The notes beneath the pieces were generated by a model. That model worked only from the letters and a program-made list of their open reading frames with translations, was not told the DNA's origin and did not search any database. A stretch of 64,000 bases of DNA, taken from positions 25,978,946-26,042,945 of the forward strand of contig OV121084.1 in assembly GCA_921293015.1 (NCBI GenBank), read 5' to 3'. A program made the translations under genes and the position numbers. Below, in pieces: positions 36,642-64,000 of the stretch; the stretch's first letter is position 1; each line of letters starts with the position of its first letter. The stretch is from Phorcus lineatus. Lineage: Eukaryota > Mollusca > Gastropoda > Trochida > Trochidae.

Positions 36642-39600
36642 TCAGTGATCTTCCGCCATTTCAGGCACCAGATATTCTCGGTTTTCGTACGTCCAGAAAT
36701 CATTCAGATCAATTAGAATACTAACAACTGTGTCTCCCTTGCCACTGAAACAAAAAGGAAACATCCGAAGTTTAGACCAGATAGCTTAGTTACGCTTGGT
36801 AAAGATGTCGCAAAGTTTTCACTGCTCCAAAGGATATAATACTAAATACAGATGCATAAGTTTTCTCTTATGTATCATTGGACCGGTGTGACTGGGTCAT
36901 TAGAGATAGAAAATGTGGAGAGCATCATAGAAATTGTTCTTATTCTAGATTTAGGTAATACAGATAGAAAAGCTCACCAGTTGATAAGATCTTGGAGTGA
37001 CAAGGCGTATGGGTCAGCTGGTTTCACCATGTCAAATATTTCATCTTTTACATCCTGGAAGGAAACCGGTTCCTGTCCGTGAAGCTTCATCTGTTCCTGG
37101 ATTGCCTGGAAATACATTAATACACAGTATGATTGATACACCCATACACATTTCAAAACCATTTACTCACTGACTGAAAATAACATTTTTGAATATGCCT
37201 TTTACTGCCAGATCTGTATTCCCTTTTACAACAGGTAATGAACAAAGGGAATTCATGGGCAGAGTCACACCAAAAAAAAAGATGAGGAAAGCAATATTCT
37301 GTGACAAACTTATTCTGCGAATTTATTAATTACTTCCAGGTTCTGCAAAAGAATTGCTGGATATTTAACATATAAACATCTTATCAACATAATTAGCCAT
37401 TCATCCTTTTCGTAGCAAGAGTTCACAATAGTATATTCAAGCTTCGACTCACCCTAAAGAAGTAGTTGAGAGCGAAGACATTGAGAGATCCGCGGTGCTG
37501 CACGTCCAGAATACGGAAGAGATATCTCAGCGCCTGTGTCTCTCGTCGGTTCTCCATCGCCAGTACAAAGTCGAGGTACGTCTTGTAATCCATCTCTCCT
37601 TCATATGTCAAACACTCTTGGAACACTCTGTCAAGGAACACTTCCGTGAGTGTCCCAGTGCCGTATCTGGTAACGAAAGGTATGGAAACTCAGATTACCA
37701 ATTAATTTTGTTTTCCAACTTCACACCATCACAAATGTGTATCAAAAATGAAAACTTTTGACATTTTAAAAAATCTCATCATTGTTGAATATCTAGGATT
37801 CACATTATACAATTGACTGCAATTTATTTATTTGCATAAACCTATGATGTTGTAAGATATTGTCAAATAACATTGAGCGCTGTCGTAGTGGTTATAACTT
37901 GATGTTACAATTTTTGGGGAAGGGCCATAGCTTACAAGTGAGTTTTCAGCAATTTCCTTGCAATTCAGCTATATTTAAATCATTGAGTAATAGTTCCTTT
38001 GGTCCCATTAAATACCAATGTTTTGAGACATCATCATCATCATTATTATCATTACTGACTCCACTCATATATACACAACCCACCTGGCCAGCTCCTCCTT
38101 GCTGAGCATGCCGTTCCTATCCTTGTCTAAGTTCAGGTACTGTCCGTACACTCGTAGAGCTGACGGCGCCGAGAACCAGTTGGATTCCTGCATCTCCTTG
38201 GAGAGTTCCTCGTCCCTCAGCTGTAGCATAAAGTTGACATAGATTCAGGATTCATGTTTCCTTTTGAATATCTTTACTGAATTGTGCACATTTTCAAATA
38301 CAACAAACACTAAACATGAAGAGAAAGATTAGTAATGATCAACCGGTATCATACATCATTTCAACAAACAAGGAAATTCAAAGGAAATAATTCAACTAAT
38401 AATCCAATGATTACTTGAGCATCTCTCCCTAACATAGATACCCTCAATAAATAATTTTTAAACTTTATGTAGTCATAAAAGAAATACTAGTACATACCTC
38501 AAGAAGGTCATCCAGAAAGCTACAGGCCAAAATGTCTTGGATCTTTATTTTGCCTGTTCTGAGAGGATCCAGAAAGAAGAAGAACTTGCGGACAGCTGTG
38601 CATACATAGAATGAGTAGAAGGACTTTTCTAGGCCATTGAGCTGTCAAGGAAAGAATCAGGATTAATAATGGATTCAGCCCATAATTATAGAATATTCAC
38701 AGGTTAAGGACAATGAATACATCTTAAAAGTTATCACTTTGGATTAAAAATGACCATGTGAGTATCAGTTGTAGACTATCTGTGTTTTGATGCCAATTAA
38801 TTGTTGAATGTTGGCGAGAGAGTTAAGGTAAGACGTCTCACTTGACTCAGCAAATAACTAGAACATAGCGAGACCCTGGTCAGACCATGGGGTCTTTAAC
38901 ACACTAGCTGGTTATCAATAAATCGTAACGCGATGAAAGAAGATAACGATGCATCCTCACCTGTGGCAGTGTAGGAATCAGCTCGAGGATATAGTTCTCC
39001 AGATCCTTAATAAACAGACATGCACAACATTATAAATATTCACAGCAAATATTTCAGTTTGATGTTAGCATTATGGCAGGCCACAAAGGCCTAAATATAT
39101 ATTTATAATTATCCATTAGCCAAGGAATTTGTACACAACATAAAAGCTTTCCAGCCAGGCCTTTTCCTTCTGGGGAAAAAAAAAGACTCAAATAGGTTTT
39201 TAAACAAAGCCCCTTTAACCCTTAACCTAGGGGACTCTTGGTCACAAAATCGATAAATGATAATCCACACTGTTCAAGGAGTCTATAAACAGCATGCCAT
39301 AAGCCCATCGTGTCATTTAGGCCTGAAGAGTTAAAAAACAAAATACATCTACTTCAATATTCAAGATATTAAGACACAATTTGGACTCACCGACTCCTTT
39401 AGATATCCCTGCCCGGCCACATCGTAGAGAGAGAGACCGATACGCGTCTGATGGAGCCAGACCTTACGCATGACATAGTTGAAGAACTGCATGATAGAGA
39501 TACGACCCAAAGGATCTGACTGTAGTAACTTGCTGAACACTGTGGCACGGAAGAAAGGCCTGGAAGTAACAGCTATAGATTAACAAATATCAAACAGATA

Positions 39601-52703: not shown

Positions 52704-53189
52704 GTTTTTTTTTATTTTCCATATTTTATAATACAGGCAAACAAAAGGTATTGACAATGACACGGTTATACAGATAAAATATTATACAATAGGCAATGAC
52801 AAAAGTGTGCTTATGGTAATATATAATAGACTGTTGTGTTTTCTTTACAAGTAACAGATGTAGAGTTGACCAGTATTCAAAAAAAAATGTGTTCAGTGCC
52901 CGATGATAGGAACACGTATCTTGAGCTATCGTAATATCGAACAATTTCTTTCTTTAAGTAATCAATCTTCGGACAGAAGTTATTCATGCTACACCTATAG
53001 ATATACTGTTTGACTGCATTAACAGGATTATTGTTTTTTCCCTTCATTCCCAGAATAATTGTTTTGTTTGTAAATTCTAATTTTAACTGCACTGAATTCA
53101 ACCATGATTCCATATCTTTCCATAGTCTTAAGATGGGTTCACATTCCCATAATACATGGTTTATTGTTTCTATATCTTTTTTGCAAAAA
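52704..53189 (-). mobile_element. 5'-truncated LINE (non-LTR retrotransposon) fragment
   Basis: The - strand ORF from about 53242 contains FCKKDIETINHVLWECEPIL, the CxxxxETxxHxxxxC pattern found after the reverse transcriptase domain in L1/Jockey-type elements. A T-rich stretch at 52704-52720 is a poly(A) tail on the - strand. The piece is flanked by 116-bp direct repeats and splits the transposon-like pseudogene. Confidence 0.75.
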
Positions 53190-53305
53190 CTCTCAGGAAA
53201 GCTCAGAGAACTGTATGTTTCTTTCAAAGAAGAGACCAGCAACCTCTACAAAATTTAATTTTGAAAGTTTTGTGAATTGAGACCAAAATGGTGTATCTCT
53301 GCTGG
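53190..53305 (+). repeat. Right 116-bp direct repeat flanking the LINE fragment
   Basis: This is the partner of 52588-52703. Here the host reading frame stays open (NLYKI) where the left copy has a stop, so the right copy looks closer to the original. Confidence 0.85.
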
Positions 53306-54349
53306 TGCTCCTGGTACACATTCAGTGTCAGATACATCAAAATGTTAAACTAATGCTCGCTGCATTGCCTGGGTTGAAATTGAATATTCAGGAACTTTTA
53401 CAGAGGGTTGTATGCAACGTCCAGGCACAAGAATGCATGTTATGTCGCTGTGATAACTGGAATAGATGTACTGAAAATCGTTATCGAGTCACATCTCCAG
53501 GATGAGGGTCTAGATACAGAGGATGAAATTTCATATAAAGTTTGGGTACATACAGATAGAACAAACCTTATCACAACATCCTCAAGTCCTCAAGACTTTG
53601 TTGATGTCCTCTTGTACAAACTTGACGATTTGACAGTTCACCATTTCACTGCAAAATCTCACTCGGCCTTCTTGCCAAGATTCAAAGACCAGTTAGATGA
53701 TGAGACTGCAATAATTATTCTTAATTTTGCGGAGAACTATTCTTTTGTAGTACAAGACGCAGTCCAGGGTTTCCACTGGGAAAATTCCCAAGCCACTGTT
53801 CACCCATTAGTGGTTTACTACAGACAGGGAAACGAATCCGGGGGTTTAAACGGTCATATACTTTAGTGATGGTGCAGCAAGTCAATATAAAAACTACAAA
53901 AATTTGTCAATCTCTGTTCTCACGAAGAGGACTTTGGACTAAAAGCAGAGTGGCATTTCTTTGCAACTAGTCATGGCAAAAATGCTTGTGACGGGATAGG
54001 AGGGGACAAGCAAAAGCCAGTCTTCAAGCGACTTTCCAGAACCAAATCACAACTCCAAAACAACTGTTTGATTGGGCAGTGATTGTCATTCTTGCTGCAA
54101 AAATTTTGTTCGTGAAAAAAGAAGAGATCGAATCGGAAATTGAAAACCAAGACTTGCGCTTTTTTTGCCCAACTGTTCCCGGGACAAGAATTCACCATTC
54201 ATTCATTCCAAAAAGTGCAACAAAACTGGCCATAAAACGTGTGTTACAAAGCAATATATCAACAACAGTAACGTTAAGAAAGAAGGAACAGGGGGAAATG
54301 AAGATAACACCAGGATTACGTGATCGGTCATGATTGAACAATTGGAAAC

Positions 54350-55290
54350 GTTAATATCTGTATATGATGACAATCAAGACATGATCATTGATGTTCTGAT
54401 TCCAAGTAGAATCGAGCCCCAAACGTTAAAGACGCCAAGACGAAAGGCAAAGGTGACACTGCCTTTTGATCATATTAGCAGCTTGATGTTGACATCAGAC
54501 TGAGGTACTACAAGCTTTCTCCGGAGAGCTACAGGTCAATTTGCCAAAAATGTAAAGAGTTTGCTCTCGAGCATTTCGGTAGCAAATAACTTAAAATAAA
54601 ATATCTAAAAGGTAAGTTGATCCCCAAGGAATTTTAGATAAAGTGAATTGTCATGAATTAACTGATTATAACAACCTCCTGAATATCTCAAACATAGAGA
54701 TGTCAAATCAATGTGAAGCGTCGGTAAAATCATCTGAGGGTTGCTTTAGTAAATCACTTGCAGAAGGTTAACGGAAAATTGTACCTCCGCCAAACTTTCA
54801 TTTTTCGTAGTGTATACTATGGGATACATGTGTGCAAAAAATGAAGCCTCTGGCAGGTGCGCCTTTTTCTATAGCCAGCTTAAAACATAGGGCATTTTTG
54901 ACATTTTTCCGAACAGTGGGTAGATATAAGGCAGCTATTATAACACAAGAACAAAATATATTGTCAAGGCCGTATTAAATGCTTCCTATTATACAGTCAT
55001 GAAGCAAGACTAGATTTGAATGAATGATTCCTAAAATATATCAAAAGAAACACCATCCACTTCTACCATTTCAAAGCAACAAACTGCCTTGAGAAAAGAA
55101 ATAATACTAAAATAACCCTTAAACTAATTTATTTTAAAAAATCTTGATTGGGCAGAAAATGCTTCCAATTTTGAAAAAAAAAACAATTATGTGTTAGCAT
55201 AGACCCTATGTGAATTGAATGAAATAGTGCTTTATGTTATAAAGTTTATTTATATGTTATTATCATCCATCGATGTTACGGATATTAAGC
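54350..55290. other. Non-coding region between transposon debris and tandem array
   Basis: This is AT-rich DNA without a supported gene. A short open stretch around 54355-54500 (DNQDMIIDVLIPSRIE) could be the tail of the degenerate transposon. Nothing else is recognised. Confidence 0.3.
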
Positions 55291-55336
55291 CAAAGTTACG
55301 GATATTAAGCCGTTGTTCTAAAATGAAAGTACTATG

Positions 55337-55480
55337 TTTGGCGCCGCTACAGTGATAGCATTGGAGGCTACCGTAGGTACGCGCATGCGTGACGTCGCTA
55401 TGGTCACGACGTCATTTATCTGTTGATGTCACAGACGATGTAGCCAGTCTCCGGCGAAGCGCCGCCGGAGACGGACGTAT
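55337..55480 (+). promoter_or_regulatory. GC-rich island of array unit 1: E2F-, NRF1- and CRE-like sites plus hairpin
   Basis: Sites in order are TTTGGCGCC (E2F-like, 55337-55345), GCGCATGCGT (NRF1-like, 55381-55390), TGACGTCG (55390-55397) and CGACGTCA (55407-55414), two CRE/ATF half-palindromes facing each other. A perfect 9-bp inverted repeat follows: GTCTCCGGC at 55447-55455 and GCCGGAGAC at 55464-55472 around an 8-base loop. The same island recurs every 1,365 bp. It lies 430-570 bp upstream of the TATA box, so it may act as an enhancer or as the promoter of another transcript. Factor names are inferred from consensus only. Confidence 0.55.
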
Positions 55481-55907
55481 TTAGGGGAGAGGCCGCCCGC
55501 GCGGTTTTGGGCTTATTTGCCGAATTTCCTGACTTCAGATGATTTAATTTACCGTTCGTCAATGCATTCCTTCTTGACGCAAATAATCACAATCACATAT
55601 ACAGTTTTCCCACATTAATCTAAGTAAACGGATATTAAGCCGCTGTTCTAAAATGCAAGTTTTGTAAGTCTATATACTTGTGAAAACAGAACCATTTACA
55701 ACCGCATTTGTGCCAATCAGTTTTCAATCAGTGTCAGTTATCAAGTGTGTTACAATCTCCTATCACTCAGTTATCAAAACACAGCCGTGGCGGTTCTGCT
55801 TATCACTGTGCCATGTTAGAGTGATTAGATTATTGTCAGGATTCAATTATCTCCAATACACTCCACATATCTGGCATGAACAATGAGAAGAACATGTCAT
55901 TCGTATG

Positions 55908-55913
55908 TATAAA
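55908..55913 (+). promoter_or_regulatory. TATA box of array gene copy 1
   Basis: TATAAA here overlaps the A of an in-frame upstream ATG at 55913. With transcription starting about 25-31 bases downstream (about 55938-55944), that ATG is outside the mRNA. This leaves the ATG at 55997 (AACATGG, good initiation context) as the start after a 5' UTR of about 55 bases. The same box recurs at +1,365-bp steps: 57273, 58638, 60003, 61368 and 62733. Confidence 0.7.
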
Positions 55914-55996
55914 TGCAGAGACGATTTCGATGGAGGACATTATCTACCCTAGCTTTCTCCAGCAAACCTGTATTTAGAGATTCGTGCCGATTCAAC

Positions 55997-56302
55997 ATGG
56001 AAAAAGTTCAAATGTACGCAGAATTGACTCAGACAGAAACACGTTTCAAACGGGCCTGTGAACAAGTAGTTCTCCTGAATGACAAGCTTGAAGGTCTCCA
56101 ACGCCGATATGACAAAGCAAGACAAGAGAATCATCGTTCATTTCGCTACAACCTCCGCCTGAAGATGGCATCTGTTGAAGGCGTACGCAATGCTTACTAT
56201 GAATACGCTTGTGAAAAGGCAGAGAGGATTGCCGAGTTGAGGTACTATGTATCTGAAGAAGCCCAGTCCGACTCCGAAGGTGAAGACAGCATGGTGTACT
56301 AA
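55997..56302 (+). CDS. Array gene copy 1: 101-aa coiled-coil protein with acidic tail, unknown function
   Basis: The ORF is intronless. The start was chosen at 55997 because the TATA box excludes the ATG at 55913, which would give 129 aa. The protein is highly charged and helical: residues about 5-50 show heptad-like spacing (RACEQVVLLNDKLEGLQRR). A conserved-looking core follows (SFRYNLRLKMASVEGVRNAY), then EYACEKAERIAELRYYV and an acidic tail with likely CK2 sites (SDSEGEDSMVY). It has no signal peptide or membrane segment, and it is not a histone fold by sequence. I do not recognise the family with certainty. The 3' UTR carries a histone-like stem-loop, suggesting a non-polyadenylated, replication-linked mRNA; a role in S phase or early cleavage is inference. 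The hydropathy and length would suit a small nuclear or chromatin-associated factor. Confidence 0.8.
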   Translation: MEKVQMYAELTQTETRFKRACEQVVLLNDKLEGLQRRYDKARQENHRSFRYNLRLKMASVEGVRNAYYEYACEKAERIAELRYYVSEEAQSDSEGEDSMVY

Positions 56303-56332
56303 GACAACCATGCAGTCTAACCATTTTACAAC

Positions 56333-56348
56333 AGCCCTTGTCAGGGCT
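56333..56348 (+). terminator. Histone-type 3' stem-loop of array gene copy 1
   Basis: AGCCCT-TGTC-AGGGCT forms a perfect 6-bp stem with a 4-base loop, 30 bases after the stop codon. Against the metazoan histone consensus GGYYCU-UYUN-AGRRCC it differs by one compensated base pair at the stem foot (A-U for G-C) and one loop base (G for Y). The next bases AAACA fit the ANNNA cleavage context. Identical hairpins occur in the other units at 57698, 59063, 60428, 61793 and 63158 (first base). Confidence 0.78.
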
Positions 56349-56358
56349 AAACAAATAT

Positions 56359-56367
56359 CAAAAAAGA
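56359..56367 (+). promoter_or_regulatory. Histone downstream element-like purine motif, copy 1
   Basis: CAAAAAAGA starts 11 bases after the stem-loop and differs at one base from the classic CAAGAAAGA that pairs with U7 snRNA in histone pre-mRNA processing. Spacing is slightly short but within the range seen for histone genes. It repeats at 57724, 59089, 60454, 61819 and 63184. Confidence 0.6.
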
Positions 56368-57361
56368 TTTCTGTTATACAATGCACAATCCCAAACCCTC
56401 CATCTTTGTATGTTAATAAACTAAAACGCCTACAATTTTGCGTATCTAAACTGGCACAAACAATTGCCCCACAAATATAAACATGCAGAATAGCATACGT
56501 GCACACACATGGAAACGCACACAAGACAACCCCATGTGCACATCGAAATAGGCATGACATTTGCAAAGCTGCAATGGTCCGGCACATCTGCTTCTCTCGA
56601 AACGATTCTCAATATTACCTAGAACGGAAATCAGAGTTCAGAAAAATCATAAAGAAAACCTCTTGAATATCGAAACCGTTTCTGTAAAAAATCGGGTCAC
56701 TTTTGGCGCCGCTACAGTGATAGCATTGGAGGCTACCGTAGGTACGCGCATGCGTGACGTCGCTATGGTCACGACGTCATTTATCTGTTGATGTCACAGA
56801 CGATGTAGCCAGTCTCCGGTGAAGCGCCGCCGGAGACGGACGTATTTAGGGGAGAGGCCGCCCGCGCGGTTTTGGGCTTATTTGCCGAATTTCCTGACTT
56901 CAGATGATTTAATTTACCGTTCGTCAATGCATTCCTTCTTGACGCAAATAATCACAATCACACATACAGTTTTCCCACATTAATCTAAGTAAACGGATAT
57001 TAAGCCGCTGTTCTAAAATGCAAGTTTTGTTAGTCTATATACTTGTGAAAACAGAACCATTTACAACCGCATTTGTGCCAATCAGTTTTCAATCAGTGTC
57101 AGTTATCAAGTGTGTTACAATCTCCTATCACTCAGTTATCAAAACACAGCCGTGGCGGTTCTGCTTATCATTGTGCCATGTTAGAGTGATTAGATTATTG
57201 TCAGGATTCAATTATCTCCAATACACTCCACATATCTGGCATGAACAATGAGAAGAACATGTCATTCGTATGTATAAATGCAGAGACGATTTCGATGGAG
57301 GACATTATCTACCCTAGCTTTCTCCAGCAAACCTGTATTTAGAGATTCGTGCCGATTCAAC

Positions 57362-57667
57362 ATGGAAAAAGTTCAAATGTACGCAGAATTGACTCAGACA
57401 GAAACACGTTTCAAACGGGCCTGTGAACAAGTAGTTCTCCTGAATGACAAGCTTGAAGGTCTCCAACGCCGATATGACAAAGCAAGACAAGAGAATCATC
57501 GTTCATTTCGCTACAACCTCCGCCTGAAGATGGCATCTGTTGAAGGCGTACGCAATGCTTACTATGAATACGCTTGTGAAAAGGCAGAGAGGATTGCCGA
57601 GTTGAGGTACTATGTATCTGAAGAAGCCCAGTCCGACTCCGAAGGTGAAGACAGCATGGTGTACTAA
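57362..57667 (+). CDS. Array gene copy 2, 101-aa coiled-coil protein
   Basis: The protein is identical to copy 1. The flanking DNA differs by single bases, for example T in the GC-island hairpin at 56820 (turning a C-G pair into a T-G wobble). Spacer variants are TTTTCCCAC and CCGCATTTG (type A), shared with copies 1 and 6. Confidence 0.8.
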   Translation: MEKVQMYAELTQTETRFKRACEQVVLLNDKLEGLQRRYDKARQENHRSFRYNLRLKMASVEGVRNAYYEYACEKAERIAELRYYVSEEAQSDSEGEDSMVY

Positions 57668-58726
57668 GACAACCATGCAGTCTAACCATTTTACAACAGC
57701 CCTTGTCAGGGCTAAACAAATATCAAAAAAGATTTCTGTTATACAATGCACAATCCCAAACCCTCCGTCTTTGTATGTTAATAAACTAAAACGCCTACAA
57801 TTTTGCGTATCTAAACTGGCACAAACAATTGCCCCACAAATATAAACATGCAGAATAGCATACGTGCACACACATGGAAACGCACACAAGACAACCCCAT
57901 GTGCACATCGAAATAGGCATGACATTTGCAAAGCTGCAATGGTCCGGCACATCTGCCTCTCTCGAAACGATTCTCAATATTACCTAGAACGGAAATCAGA
58001 GTTCAGAAAAATCATAAAGAAAACCTCTTGAATATCGAAACCGTTTCTGTAAAAAATCGGGTCACTTTTGGCGCCGCTACAGTGATAGCATTGGAGGCTA
58101 CCGTAGGTACGCGCATGCGTGACGTCGCTATGGTCACGACGTCATTTATCTGTTGATGTCACAGACGATGTAGCCAGTCTCCGGCGAAGCGCCGCCGGAG
58201 ACGGACGTATTTAGGGGAGAGGCCGCCCGCGCGGTTTTGGGCTTATTTGCCGAATTTCCTGACTTCAGATGATTTAATTTACCGTTCGTCAATGCATTCC
58301 TTCTTGACGCAAATAATCACAATCACACATACAGTTTTACCACATTAATCTAAGTAAACGGATATTAAGCCGCTGTTCTAAAATGCAAGTTTTGTTAGTC
58401 TATATACTTGTGAAAACAGAACCATTTACAACCACATTTGTGCCAATCAGTTTTCAATCAGTGTCAGTTATCAAGTGTGTTACAATCTCCTATCACTCAG
58501 TTATCAAAACACAGCCGTGGCGGTTCTGCTTATCATTGTGCCATGTTAGAGTGATTAGATTATTGTCAGGATTCAATTATCTCCAATACACTCCACATAT
58601 CTGGCATGAACAATGAGAAGAACATGTCATTCGTATGTATAAATGCAGAGACGATTTCGATGGAGGACATTATCTACCCTAGCTTTCTCCAGCAAACCTG
58701 TATTTAGAGATTCGTGCCGATTCAAC

Positions 58727-59032
58727 ATGGAAAAAGTTCAAATGTACGCAGAATTGACTCAGACAGAAACACGTTTCAAACGGGCCTGTGAACAAGTAGT
58801 TCTCCTGAATGACAAGCTTGAAGGTCTCCAACGCCGATATGACAAAGCAAGACAAGAGAATCATCGTTCATTTCGCTACAACCTCCGCCTGAAGATGGCA
58901 TCTGTTGAAGGCGTACGCAATGCTTACTATGAATACGCTTGTGAAAAGGCAGAGAGGATTGCCGAGTTGAGGTACTATGTATCTGAAGAAGCCCAGTCCG
59001 ACTCCGAAGGTGAAGACAGCATGGTGTACTAA
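58727..59032 (+). CDS. Array gene copy 3, 101-aa coiled-coil protein
   Basis: The protein is identical to copies 1, 2 and 4. The upstream spacer is of type B (TTTTACCAC and CCACATTTG), shared with copies 4, 5 and the partial copy 7. Confidence 0.8.
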   Translation: MEKVQMYAELTQTETRFKRACEQVVLLNDKLEGLQRRYDKARQENHRSFRYNLRLKMASVEGVRNAYYEYACEKAERIAELRYYVSEEAQSDSEGEDSMVY

Positions 59033-60091
59033 GACAACCATGCAGTCTAACCATTTTACAACAGCCCTTGTCAGGGCTAAACAAATATCAAAAAAGATTT
59101 CTGTTATACAATGCACAATCCCAAACCCTCCGTCTTTGTATGTTAATAAACTAAAACGCCTACAATTTTGCGTATCTAAACTGGCACAAACAATTGCCCC
59201 ACAAATATAAACATGCAGAATAGCATACGTGCACACACATGGAAACGCACACAAGACAACCCCATGTGCACATCGAAATAGGCATGACATTTGCAAAGCT
59301 GCAATGGTCCGGCACATCTGCCTCTCTCGAAACGATTCTCAATATTACCTAGAACGGAAATCAGAGTTCAGAAAAATCATAAAGAAAACCTCTTGAATAT
59401 CGAAACCGTTTCTGTAAAAAATCGGGTCACTTTTGGCGCCGCTACAGTGATAGCATTGGAGGCTACCGTAGGTACGCGCATGCGTGACGTCGCTATGGTC
59501 ACGACGTCATTTATCTGTTGATGTCACAGACGATGTAGCCAGTCTCCGGCGAAGCGCCGCCGGAGACGGACGTATTTAGGGGAGAGGCCGCCCGCGCGGT
59601 TTTGGGCTTATTTGCCGAATTTCCTGACTTCAGATGATTTAATTTACCGTTCGTCAATGCATTCCTTCTTGACGCAAATAATCACAATCACACATACAGT
59701 TTTACCACATTAATCTAAGTAAACGGATATTAAGCCGCTGTTCTAAAATGCAAGTTTTGTTAGTCTATATACTTGTGAAAACAGAACCATTTACAACCAC
59801 ATTTGTGCCAATCAGTTTTCAATCAGTGTCAGTTATCAAGTGTGTTACAATCTCCTATCACTCAGTTATCAAAACACAGCCGTGGCGGTTCTGCTTATCA
59901 TTGTGCCATGTTAGAGTGATTAGATTATTGTCAGGATTCAATTATCTCCAATACACTCCACATATCTGGCATGAACAATGAGAAGAACATGTCATTCGTA
60001 TGTATAAATGCAGAGACGATTTCGATGGAGGACATTATCTACCCTAGCTTTCTCCAGCAAACCTGTATTTAGAGATTCGTGCCGATTCAAC

Positions 60092-60397
60092 ATGGAAAAA
60101 GTTCAAATGTACGCAGAATTGACTCAGACAGAAACACGTTTCAAACGGGCCTGTGAACAAGTAGTTCTCCTGAATGACAAGCTTGAAGGTCTCCAACGCC
60201 GATATGACAAAGCAAGACAAGAGAATCATCGTTCATTTCGCTACAACCTCCGCCTGAAGATGGCATCTGTTGAAGGCGTACGCAATGCTTACTATGAATA
60301 CGCTTGTGAAAAGGCAGAGAGGATTGCCGAGTTGAGGTACTATGTATCTGAAGAAGCCCAGTCCGACTCCGAAGGTGAAGACAGCATGGTGTACTAA
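60092..60397 (+). CDS. Array gene copy 4, 101-aa coiled-coil protein
   Basis: The protein is identical to copy 3, and the surrounding unit is the same as copy 3 at every diagnostic site I compared. Copies 3 and 4 are therefore probably the most recent duplicates. Confidence 0.8.
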   Translation: MEKVQMYAELTQTETRFKRACEQVVLLNDKLEGLQRRYDKARQENHRSFRYNLRLKMASVEGVRNAYYEYACEKAERIAELRYYVSEEAQSDSEGEDSMVY

Positions 60398-61456
60398 GAC
60401 AACCATGCAGTCTAACCATTTTACAACAGCCCTTGTCAGGGCTAAACAAATATCAAAAAAGATTTCTGTTATACAATGCACAATCCCAAACCCTCCGTCT
60501 TTGTATGTTAATAAACTAAAACGCCTACAATTTTGCGTATCTAAACTGGCACAAACAATTGCCCCACAAATATAAACATGCAGAATAGCATACGTGCACA
60601 CACATGGAAACGCACACAAGACAACCCCATGTGCACATCGAAATAGGCATGACATTTGCAAAGCTGCAATGGTCCGGCACATCTGCCTCTCTCGAAACGA
60701 TTCTCAATATTACCTAGAACGGAAATCAGAGTTCAGAAAAATCATAAAGAAAACCTCTTGAATATCGAAACCGTTTCTGTAAAAAATCGGGTCACTTTTG
60801 GCGCCGCTACAGTGATAGCATTGGAGGCTACCGTAGGTACGCGCATGCGTGACGTCGCTATGGTCACGACGTCATTTATCTGTTGATGTCACAGACGATG
60901 TAGCCAGTCTCCGGCGAAGCGCCGCCGGAGACGGACGTATTTAGGGGAGAGGCCGCCCGCGCGGTTTTGGGCTTATTTGCCGAATTTCCTGACTTCAGAT
61001 GATTTAATTTACCGTTCGTCAATGCATTCCTTCTTGACGCAAATAATCACAATCACACATACAGTTTTACCACATTAATCTAAGTAAACGGATATTAAGC
61101 CGCTGTTCTAAAATGCAAGTTTTGTTAGTCTATATACTTGTGAAAACAGAACCATTTACAACCACATTTGTGCCAATCGGTTTTCAATCAGTGTCAGTTA
61201 TCAAGTGTGTTACAATCTCCTATCACTCAGTTATCAAAACACAGCCGTGGCGGTTCTGCTTATCACTGTGCCATGTTAGAGTGATTAGATTATTGTCAGG
61301 ATTCAATTATCTCCAATACACTCCACATATCTGGCATGAACAATGAGAAGAACATGTCATTCGTATGTATAAATGCAGAGACGATTTCGATGGAGGACAT
61401 TATCTACCCTAGCTTTCTCCAGCAAACCTGTATTTAGAGATTCGTGCCGATTCAAC

Positions 61457-61762
61457 ATGGAAAAAGTTCAAATGTACGCAGAATTGACTCAGACAGAAAC
61501 ACGTTTCAAACGGGCCTGTGAACAAGTAGTTCTCCTGAATGACAAGCTTGAAGGTCTCCAACGCCGATATGACAAAGCAAGACAAGAGAATCATCGTTCA
61601 TTTCGCTACAACCTCCGCCTGAAGATGGCATCTGTTGAAGGCGTACGCAATGCTTACTATGAATACGCTTGTGAAAAGGCAGAGAGGATTGTCGAGTTGA
61701 GGTACTATGTATCTGAAGAAGCCCAGTCCGACTCCGAAGGTGAAGACAGCATGGTGTACTAA
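61457..61762 (+). CDS. Array gene copy 5, 101-aa coiled-coil protein, one substitution
   Basis: One residue differs: IVEL instead of IAEL near residue 79 (GCC to GTC). The spacer is type B, but its TATCACTGTG and CTTCTCTCG variants match copy 1, so this unit is a mosaic. One extra private change, CAATCGG for CAATCAG, lies upstream. Confidence 0.8.
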   Translation: MEKVQMYAELTQTETRFKRACEQVVLLNDKLEGLQRRYDKARQENHRSFRYNLRLKMASVEGVRNAYYEYACEKAERIVELRYYVSEEAQSDSEGEDSMVY

Positions 61763-62821
61763 GACAACCATGCAGTCTAACCATTTTACAACAGCCCTTG
61801 TCAGGGCTAAACAAATATCAAAAAAGATTTCTGTTATACAATGCACAATCCCAAACCCTCCGTCTTTGTATGTTAATAAACTAAAACGCCTACAATTTTG
61901 CGTATCTAAACTGGCACAAACAATTGCCCCACAAATATAAACATGCAGAATAGCATACGTGCACACACATGGAAACGCACACAAGACAACCCCATGTGCA
62001 CATCGAAATAGGCATGACATTTGCAAAGCTGCAATGGTCCGGCACATCTGCTTCTCTCGAAACGATTCTCAATATTACCTAGAACGGAAATCAGAGTTCA
62101 GAAAAATCATAAAGAAAACCTCTTGAATATCGAAACCGTTTCTGTAAAAAATCGGGTCACTTTTGGCGCCGCTACAGTGATAGCATTGGAGGCTACCGTA
62201 GGTACGCGCATGCGTGACGTCGCTATGGTCACGACGTCATTTATCTGTTGATGTCACAGACGATGTAGCCAGTCTCCGGCGAAGCGCCGCCGGAGACGGA
62301 CGTATTTAGGGGAGAGGCCGCCCGCGCGGTTTTGGGCTTATTTGCCGAATTTCCTGACTTCAGATGATTTAATTTACCGTTCGTCAATGCATTCCTTCTT
62401 GACGCAAATAATCACAATCACACATACAGTTTTCCCACATTAATCTAAGTAAACGGATATTAAGCCGCTGTTCTAAAATGCAAGTTTTGTTAGTCTATAT
62501 ACTTGTGAAAACAGAACCATTTACAACCGCATTTGTGCCAATCAGTTTTCAATCAGTGTCAGTTATCAAGTGTGTTACAATCTCCTATCACTCAGTTATC
62601 AAAACACAGCCGTGGCGGTTCTGCTTATCATTGTGCCATGTTAGAGTGATTAGATTATTGTCAGGATTCAATTATCTCCAATACACTCCACATATCTGGC
62701 ATGAACAATGAGAAGAACATGTCATTCGTATGTATAAATGCAGAGACGATTTCGATGGAGGACATTATCTACCCTAGCTTTCTCCAGCAAACCTGTATTT
62801 AGAGATTCGTGCCGATTCAAC

Positions 62822-63127
62822 ATGGAAAAAGTTCAAATGTACGCAGAATTGACTCAGACAGAAACACGTTTCAAACGGGCCTGTGAACAAGTAGTTCTCC
62901 TGAATGACAAGCTTGAAGGTCTCCAACGCCGATATGACAAAGCAAGACAAGAGAATCATCCTTCATTTCGCTACAACCTCCGCCTGAAGATGGCATCTGT
63001 TGAAGGCGTACGCAATGCTTACTATGAATACGCTTGTGAAAAGGCAGAGAGGATTGCCGAGTTGAGGTACTATGTATCTGAAGAAGCCCAGTCCGACTCC
63101 GAAGGTGAAGACAGCATGGTGTACTAA
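62822..63127 (+). CDS. Array gene copy 6, 101-aa coiled-coil protein, one substitution
   Basis: One residue differs: HPSFRY instead of HRSFRY, about residue 47 (CGT to CCT), at the edge of the most conserved-looking core. A proline there could break the helix, so this copy may be altered in function. The spacer is type A, as in copies 1 and 2. Confidence 0.8.
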   Translation: MEKVQMYAELTQTETRFKRACEQVVLLNDKLEGLQRRYDKARQENHPSFRYNLRLKMASVEGVRNAYYEYACEKAERIAELRYYVSEEAQSDSEGEDSMVY

Positions 63128-63527
63128 GACAACCATGCAGTCTAACCATTTTACAACAGCCCTTGTCAGGGCTAAACAAATATCAAAAAAGATTTCTGTT
63201 ATACAATGCACAATCCCAAACCCTCCGTCTTTGTATGTTAATAAACTAAAACGCCTACAATTTTGCGTATCTAAACTGGCACAAACAATTGCCCCACAAA
63301 TATAAACATGCAGAATAGCATACGTGCACACACATGGAAACGCACACAAGACAACCCCATGTGCACATCGAAATAGGCATGACATTTGCAAAGCTGCAAT
63401 GGTCCGGCACATCTGCCTCTCTCGAAACGATTCTCAATATTACCTAGAACGGAAATCAGAGTTCAGAAAAATCATAAAGAAAACCTCTTGAATATCGAAA
63501 CCGTTTCTGTAAAAAATCGGGTCACTT

Positions 63528-64000
63528 TTGGCGCCGCTACAGTGATAGCATTGGAGGCTACCGTAGGTACGCGCATGCGTGACGTCGCTATGGTCACGAC
63601 GTCATTTATCTGTTGATGTCACAGACGATGTAGCCAGTCTCCGGCGAAGCGCCGCCGGAGACGGACGTATTTAGGGGAGAGGCCGCCCGCGCGGTTTTGG
63701 GCTTATTTGCCGAATTTCCTGACTTCAGATGATTTAATTTACCGTTCGTCAATGCATTCCTTCTTGACGCAAATAATCACAATCACACATACAGTTTTAC
63801 CACATTAATCTAAGTAAACGGATATTAAGCCGCTGTTCTAAAATGCAAGTTTTGTTAGTCTATATACTTGTGAAAACAGAACCATTTACAACCACATTTG
63901 TGCCAATCAGTTTTCAATCAGTGTCAGTTATCAAGTGTGTTACAATCTCCTATCACTCAGTTATCAAAACACAGCCGTGGCGGTTCTGCTTATCACTGTG
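63528..64000 (+). repeat. Array unit 7, partial (GC island and spacer only)
   Basis: The unit matches the others up to the window edge, with type B spacer variants and TATCACTGTG. The expected TATA box (about 64098) and ORF lie just outside, so nothing can be said about its coding part. Confidence 0.95.

Follow-up and report, generated by a model that had tools for sequence, protein, structure and literature searches.

The right end of a 64,000-nucleotide stretch of the Phorcus lineatus genome (contig OV121084.1 of assembly GCA_921293015.1; hereafter the window) carries a head-to-tail tandem array of 1,365-bp units. Each complete unit encodes a small protein that does not resemble a histone and, shortly past the stop codon, a hairpin resembling the one that ends histone mRNAs. 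Six units are complete with their coding sequence; the window ends within a seventh, short of its coding part, and the array continues beyond. Successive start codons are spaced by exactly 1,365 positions (Table 1). Comparison of the six copies reveals 12 variable columns out of 1,365, two of which are coding; in copy 1, one of the 12 falls on the base immediately outside the left array edge. The encoded proteins are identical in four of the six copies, and the other two carry one substitution each. As in replication-dependent histone clusters, the units are tandem and multicopy and their coding sequence is uninterrupted; an intron in the 5' untranslated region (UTR) is still possible. A first-pass annotation, made from the letters of the stretch, had described the 1,365-bp units and their 101-residue protein, a hairpin with a 6-bp stem and a 4-base loop 30 nt past the stop codon, a downstream element followed by AATAAA, and a TATA box with an E2F-like site. 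All of these are present, the array and its protein in six complete copies and the two promoter elements as consensus matches.

The hairpin, AGCCCT-TGTC-AGGGCT (AGCCCU-UGUC-AGGGCU in RNA), lies 30 nt past the stop codon and is identical in all six copies. It has a 6-bp stem, a 4-nt loop, G as the second stem base, and U at loop positions 1 and 3, which is the rule for the histone stem-loop. The first stem pair is A-U in place of the consensus G-C, a compensated change that keeps the pairing, as the first-pass annotation had recognized. Compared with the strict consensus GGYYYTTTTCARRRCC, 13 of 16 positions match; the 14 of 16 claimed previously is obtained when the second loop base is left free. 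The best Rfam match to the unit is RF00032, the histone 3' stem-loop, with a score of 22.8 bits over model positions 1-46 (full length) and an E-value of 0.0022 when 2 kb are searched against 4,227 families, or 0.07 for 64 kb. The six array copies are the sole RF00032 matches in the window up to an E-value of 10, and they are also the only perfect 6-bp/4-nt hairpins on either strand of the window that score at least 11 against the consensus. In 4 Mb of first-order Markov sequence, examined on one strand, three perfect hairpins of this shape score at least 13 and none scores at least 14. Immediately past the stem lies AAACA, a putative cleavage context by analogy with histone pre-mRNA cleavage. 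AATAT separates it from CAAAAAAGA, a purine-rich element that falls within about 10-20 nt of the hairpin, where an element pairing with U7 would be expected.

Table 1. Features of the array, in window positions; single elements are given for copy 1
Feature	Position	Strand	Remark
Tandem array, 1,365-bp units	55337..64000	+	At lag 1365, each 100 bases are 97-100% identical
E2F-like site TTTGGCGC	55337..55344	+	Array left edge, 660 bp upstream of ATG
TATA-like TATAAATG	55908..55915	+	89 bp upstream of ATG, in six units; consensus match only
Copy 1 coding sequence	55997..56302	+	101 aa, TAA stop
Copy 2 coding sequence	57362..57667	+	
Copy 3 coding sequence	58727..59032	+	
Copy 4 coding sequence	60092..60397	+	
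Copy 5 coding sequence	61457..61762	+	A79V
Copy 6 coding sequence	62822..63127	+	R47P
Stem-loop, copy 1	56333..56348	+	Present in minimum-energy fold of 80-nt context
Stem-loop, copy 2	57698..57713	+	RF00032 match, consensus scan
Stem-loop, copy 3	59063..59078	+	RF00032 match, consensus scan
Stem-loop, copy 4	60428..60443	+	RF00032 match, consensus scan
Stem-loop, copy 5	61793..61808	+	RF00032 match, consensus scan
Stem-loop, copy 6	63158..63173	+	RF00032 match, consensus scan
AAACA, putative cleavage context	56349..56353	+	Same offset in all copies; putative cut after CA, 5 nt past stem
CAAAAAAGA, candidate histone downstream element (U7 pairing)	56359..56367	+	10 nt past stem; offset constant across copies
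AATAAA, possible alternative poly(A) signal	56415..56420	+	47 nt beyond downstream element

The protein itself was examined by domain, structure, and sequence searches. The window protein has no significant Pfam match, and 46 family members were scanned without a consistent one. The AlphaFold model shows two long helices, residues 2-43 and 47-96, with a mean predicted local distance difference test score (pLDDT) of 90, and a fold search of the PDB gave a best E-value of 0.21 and nothing at or below 0.001. PDB sequence matches are weak, among them BAP31 (best E-value 0.033) and CENP-S (0.54). Similarities to BAP31, ZapB, and p115 were set aside as weak coiled-coil matches. The protein is predicted to be a two-helix hairpin and not a histone, in line with the first-pass annotation, which had called it non-histone.

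The gene could instead be a histone variant, its product a histone or histone-fold protein that has diverged very far. Its similar size and multicopy tandem layout would fit such an origin, as would an isoelectric point of 8.5-10.6 for the first 88 residues in six of the seven members computed and the very weak profile match to CENP-S, itself a histone-fold protein. However, that match covers chain residues 90-124 of 138, the isoelectric point of the whole window copy is 5.5, and no histone family appears among the Pfam matches of 46 members at E-values up to 0.1. The histone fold has three helices, whereas the model has two, and neither a histone fold nor a linker-histone domain was found by Pfam, in the predicted structure, or in the PDB fold search. 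We reject a diverged histone on the Pfam and fold results, with the nonsignificant CENP-S match as the only hit in its favor, and judge it very improbable.

The protein belongs to a large family. A single-sequence search recovered 70 family proteins at E-values up to 1, including P0071, and profile searches recovered at least 254 and then 357 at E-values up to 0.1, with 120 relatives listed from each. Among the matches listed, 10 bear an organism name, all of them molluscan hypothetical proteins (Mya arenaria, 4; Patella caerulea, 4; Dreissena polymorpha, 1; Nucella lapillus, 1). No relative was found in viral contigs, prokaryote contigs, or phage or plasmid proteins, one phage match at an E-value of 2 being ignored. 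Sixteen columns are invariant across 46 aligned members. The near-identical cluster of 135 members (P0097) and the many relatives whose source contigs are about one unit long suggest that multicopy arrays are usual in the family. P0071, which carries the Pfam accession PF01165, a ribosomal S21 domain, was set aside as a chimera and retained in pooled residue counts. The label "mitochondrial fission protein ELM1" that one source puts on P0171, P0175, P0182, P0184, and P0185 was judged to be probably an automatic mislabel.

Whether related genes keep the stem-loop was a test set by the first-pass annotation, and overlong protein models provide an answer. The family motif occurs in 189 models, and 24 of these have tails longer than 52 residues. 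We sorted the tails by eye, after the hits were known, into 16 judged to run into the 3' UTR and eight judged genuine (P0109, P0124, P0070, P0069, P0110, P0047, P0120, and P0040, with P0120 uncertain). At the position where the normal tail ends, the read-through models have W in 13 cases and Q in one, and P0100 and P0106 shift frame shortly before it. The gene caller probably read the stop codon as W or Q in these models, or slipped frame. When the extensions are back-translated, 13 of the 16 read-through models (13 of all 24 long-tailed models) give a hairpin that fits GGYYYTTNTNARRRCC and has no more than one mismatched pair; seven of these have no mismatch, and six have C-A at pair 4. None of the eight tails judged genuine matches the pattern. 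Residue shuffles of 191 proteins gave 26 hits of this type per 457,480 residues, corresponding to 0.05 expected in the 850 extension residues, an expectation to be read with the related sequences not being independent. The remaining residues, about 22,000, contain no hairpin hit against 1.25 expected.

The position and surroundings of the hairpin in these relatives resemble those in the window. It starts 18-39 nt past the stop codon in the 11 models in which this can be measured, and a purine-rich block follows in 11 of the 13 models (by eye), the block being weak in P0126 and P0160 ending before it. Two relatives carry GAAAGAAAG or GAAAAGAAG 13-14 nt past the stem. The G at the second stem base is retained in the window and in all 13 hairpin models; the excerpt of PMC10388802 used here describes this base as required by SLBP. 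The same findings bear on a chance association of a hairpin with a purine run. The unusual second loop position and the three departures from the strict consensus would fit chance, but the RF00032 E-values do not, nor does the recurrence of the element in two other lineages, where so few hits are expected. On these grounds, chance is rejected as an exceedingly improbable explanation.

For two pairs of relatives, reading the same DNA in two frames fixes its letters. A run of 51 consecutive bases is compatible with the extensions of both P0100 and P0106, in different frames, and a run of 43 with those of P0153 and P0154, whereas shuffled peptides gave a maximum of 25 compatible bases in 2,000 trials and the more distant pair P0095/P0106 gave only 20. 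The intersections are GGCCCTTCWCAGAGCC-AACACAAATATCTMGAAAGAAAGC for P0100 with P0106 and GGCWCTTTTCAGWGCC-ACACATATTTTTCGAAAAGAAG for P0153 with P0154. In both, the order is hairpin, ACACA-like spacer, and purine block. We reject the alternative that the extensions are a conserved C-terminal peptide rather than 3' UTR, because W or Q stands at the usual tail end and the same letters are read in different frames in near-paralogues. When these DNAs are aligned with the window, the hairpin, the adjacent ACA, the AT-rich spacer, and the purine-rich block stand in register, and pair 1 is A-U in the window as against G-C in both two-frame DNAs. This in-register agreement between lineages argues for selection on the RNA.

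In a 178-tip tree of core sequences, the window falls within a group of 61 tips, none of them organism-named. Of the read-through models, six belong to a separate 9-tip group and 10 to a separate 71-tip group that includes two Mya sequences; support for the split between the window's group and the others is moderate (0.73-0.79). The layout is common to three lineages, namely, the window and two read-through groups, and none of the contributing models comes from the window's own 61-tip group. The stem-loop is found in two lineages beyond that of the window, mostly with the purine-rich element.

Several observations weigh against a histone-type 3' end in this family. The RF00032 score of 22.8 is below the curated gathering score of 34, and no other Rfam family reaches its own gathering score; the scoring proposed by the first-pass annotation thus returned the expected family as the best match but under its threshold. 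The 80-nt context has a moderate folding energy (z = -1.88), with 13 of 200 shuffles folding as well. The fourth stem pair is C-A in P0100, P0106, P0125, P0126, P0128, and P0130; P0190, with A-C at pair 4 (by hand), fails the pattern, and P0131 and P0136 stop inside the hairpin. A looser pattern that admits the window's own A-U pair gives three hits in coding parts, compared with seven (perfect) in extensions. The sorting of read-through from genuine tails was done once the hits were known, and the 13 models form two related groups, amounting to about two independent events. No 3'-UTR sequence from the window's nearest relatives was found, nor any read-through model in the window's group or the limpet group. 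The two-frame pairs are near-paralogues that are alike even past the element, so that their letters are fixed but selection is not proven thereby. Lastly, an AATAAA follows in the window.

Two alternatives make use of these points. In one, an orphon or a conversion event left the hairpin behind as a relic of a histone unit, and the mRNAs are polyadenylated in the ordinary way. The score under the Rfam cut-off would suit a relic, as would the mismatch at pair 4 in one of the relative groups. A relic should decay, however, and the hairpin, spacer, and purine block are in register across three diverged lineages, with the first pair compensated; we consider this alternative unlikely. In the other, which overlaps the explanation that we favor, the genes use two kinds of end, as in some human histone genes: dividing or maternal cells would make the histone-type end, and other cells a poly(A) end directed by the downstream AATAAA. 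Human H2AC18 pre-mRNA can be processed either way, according to the excerpt of PMC9756948 used here, and the AATAAA of the array lies 47 nt beyond the downstream element. Set against this, AATAAA is a common hexamer in AT-rich DNA. Use of both ends is a substantial possibility, to which we give somewhat less than an even chance.

Our studies lead us to propose that the array belongs to a multicopy, non-histone molluscan family encoding a small two-helix hairpin protein, whose mRNAs are likely ended in the histone way by the SLBP/U7 machinery. The core reading of the first-pass annotation, histone-type 3' ends on a non-histone gene family, is supported by RF00032 as the best Rfam match and by the stem-loop in relatives of two lineages. 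In the mechanism that we envision, each unit, its coding sequence uninterrupted, would be transcribed by RNA polymerase II. SLBP would bind the hairpin (AGCCCUUGUCAGGGCU) 30 nt past the stop codon. About 10 nt farther along, the U7 small nuclear ribonucleoprotein would pair with the purine-rich element, and the nuclease CPSF73 would cut between hairpin and element, near AAACA. By analogy with histone pre-mRNA, the product would be a stem-loop-ended mRNA without a poly(A) tail, stabilized and translated through SLBP. Through its dependence on SLBP, synthesis would be tied to S phase or to maternal stores, as with histones. Concerted evolution would keep the tandem copies alike, the copies would give high dosage, and the protein may be needed in bulk at replication or early cleavage.

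The remaining features of the window concern the promoter side and the surroundings of the array. The left edge of the array, at about 55337, coincides with the E2F-like TTTGGCGC that opens each unit and that recurs at 56702, 58067, 59432, 60797, 62162, and 63527. All seven matches in the window lie inside the array, compared with 1.4 expected window-wide; being copies of one unit, they count as a single event. Upstream of the ATG, the reading frame is open (55913-55996) back to an ATG within TATAAATG, and the predicted model of a close relative, P0003, starts at an upstream ATG and includes a similar peptide; together these make a longer protein or a conserved 5' UTR possible. In the left flank, at about 55280-55336, a diverged fragment of unit sequence (ACGGATATTAAGCC...TTCTAAAATG) is seen by eye to join the array start, which suggests a past rearrangement at the array edge. 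Nearby open reading frames at 52877-53866 resemble retroelement or transposon remnants by eye, and a Pfam scan of them gave no match. Approximately the first 31 kb were assigned by eye to a dynein heavy chain gene, rich in introns and lying on the + strand (2694-27380); four of 10 submitted open reading frames between 2694 and 27380 matched the Pfam dynein domains AAA_6, AAA_8, and AAA_lid_11. An exon at 37423-37689 on the - strand gave no Pfam match and presumably resembles a PP2A regulatory subunit (PPP2R3C-like).

A broader reading, which we regard as evenly balanced, is that this is an ancient, highly multicopy molluscan family with replication-coupled, poly(A)-minus mRNAs, its helical-hairpin protein being made in bulk beside the histones as a component of chromatin, of replication, or of the cleavage stage. 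As part of this reading, the family would have been overlooked because annotation derives largely from poly(A)-selected RNA. No such family was reported in the open-access literature that we surveyed, not exhaustively, by title and abstract opening. If the proposal is true, histone-type 3'-end formation is not reserved for histones, and the family would allow a natural test that separates features of histone regulation due to the RNA end from those due to the protein. It would also point to an undescribed protein whose synthesis in molluscs may follow the timing of the histones.

The array shares much with metazoan replication-dependent histone genes, as represented by RF00032 and the U7-pairing element. 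Common to both are a 6-bp/4-nt hairpin shortly past the stop codon with G as the second stem base, A-rich flanks with CA, a downstream purine-rich element, TATA and E2F-like sites, uninterrupted coding sequence, and tandem multicopy units. Unlike those genes, the array encodes a non-histone protein and has an A-U first pair, the loop UGUC, a sub-cut-off Rfam score, and AATAAA downstream. MAR_007173 (Mya arenaria), DPMN_063043 (Dreissena polymorpha), and SNE40_014619 (Patella caerulea) fall in the same family by profile search and are annotated only as hypothetical. The literature comparisons rest on excerpts of the papers cited. Histone genes of the clam Lucina pectinata likewise have a palindrome near the stop codon that is capable of forming a stem-loop, with a purine-rich element in some genes; unlike the array, they encode histones, and the purine element is reported in only four of them and at varying positions (PMC6210712). 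Some non-histone mRNAs in human cells are reported to be poly(A)-minus, and the stem-loop is tied there only to histone genes (PMC3188798). Human H2AC18 resembles the array in combining histone elements and AAUAAA in one 3' region, but its AAUAAA overlaps the downstream element, whereas that of the array lies beyond it and follows a gene for a non-histone protein (PMC9756948).

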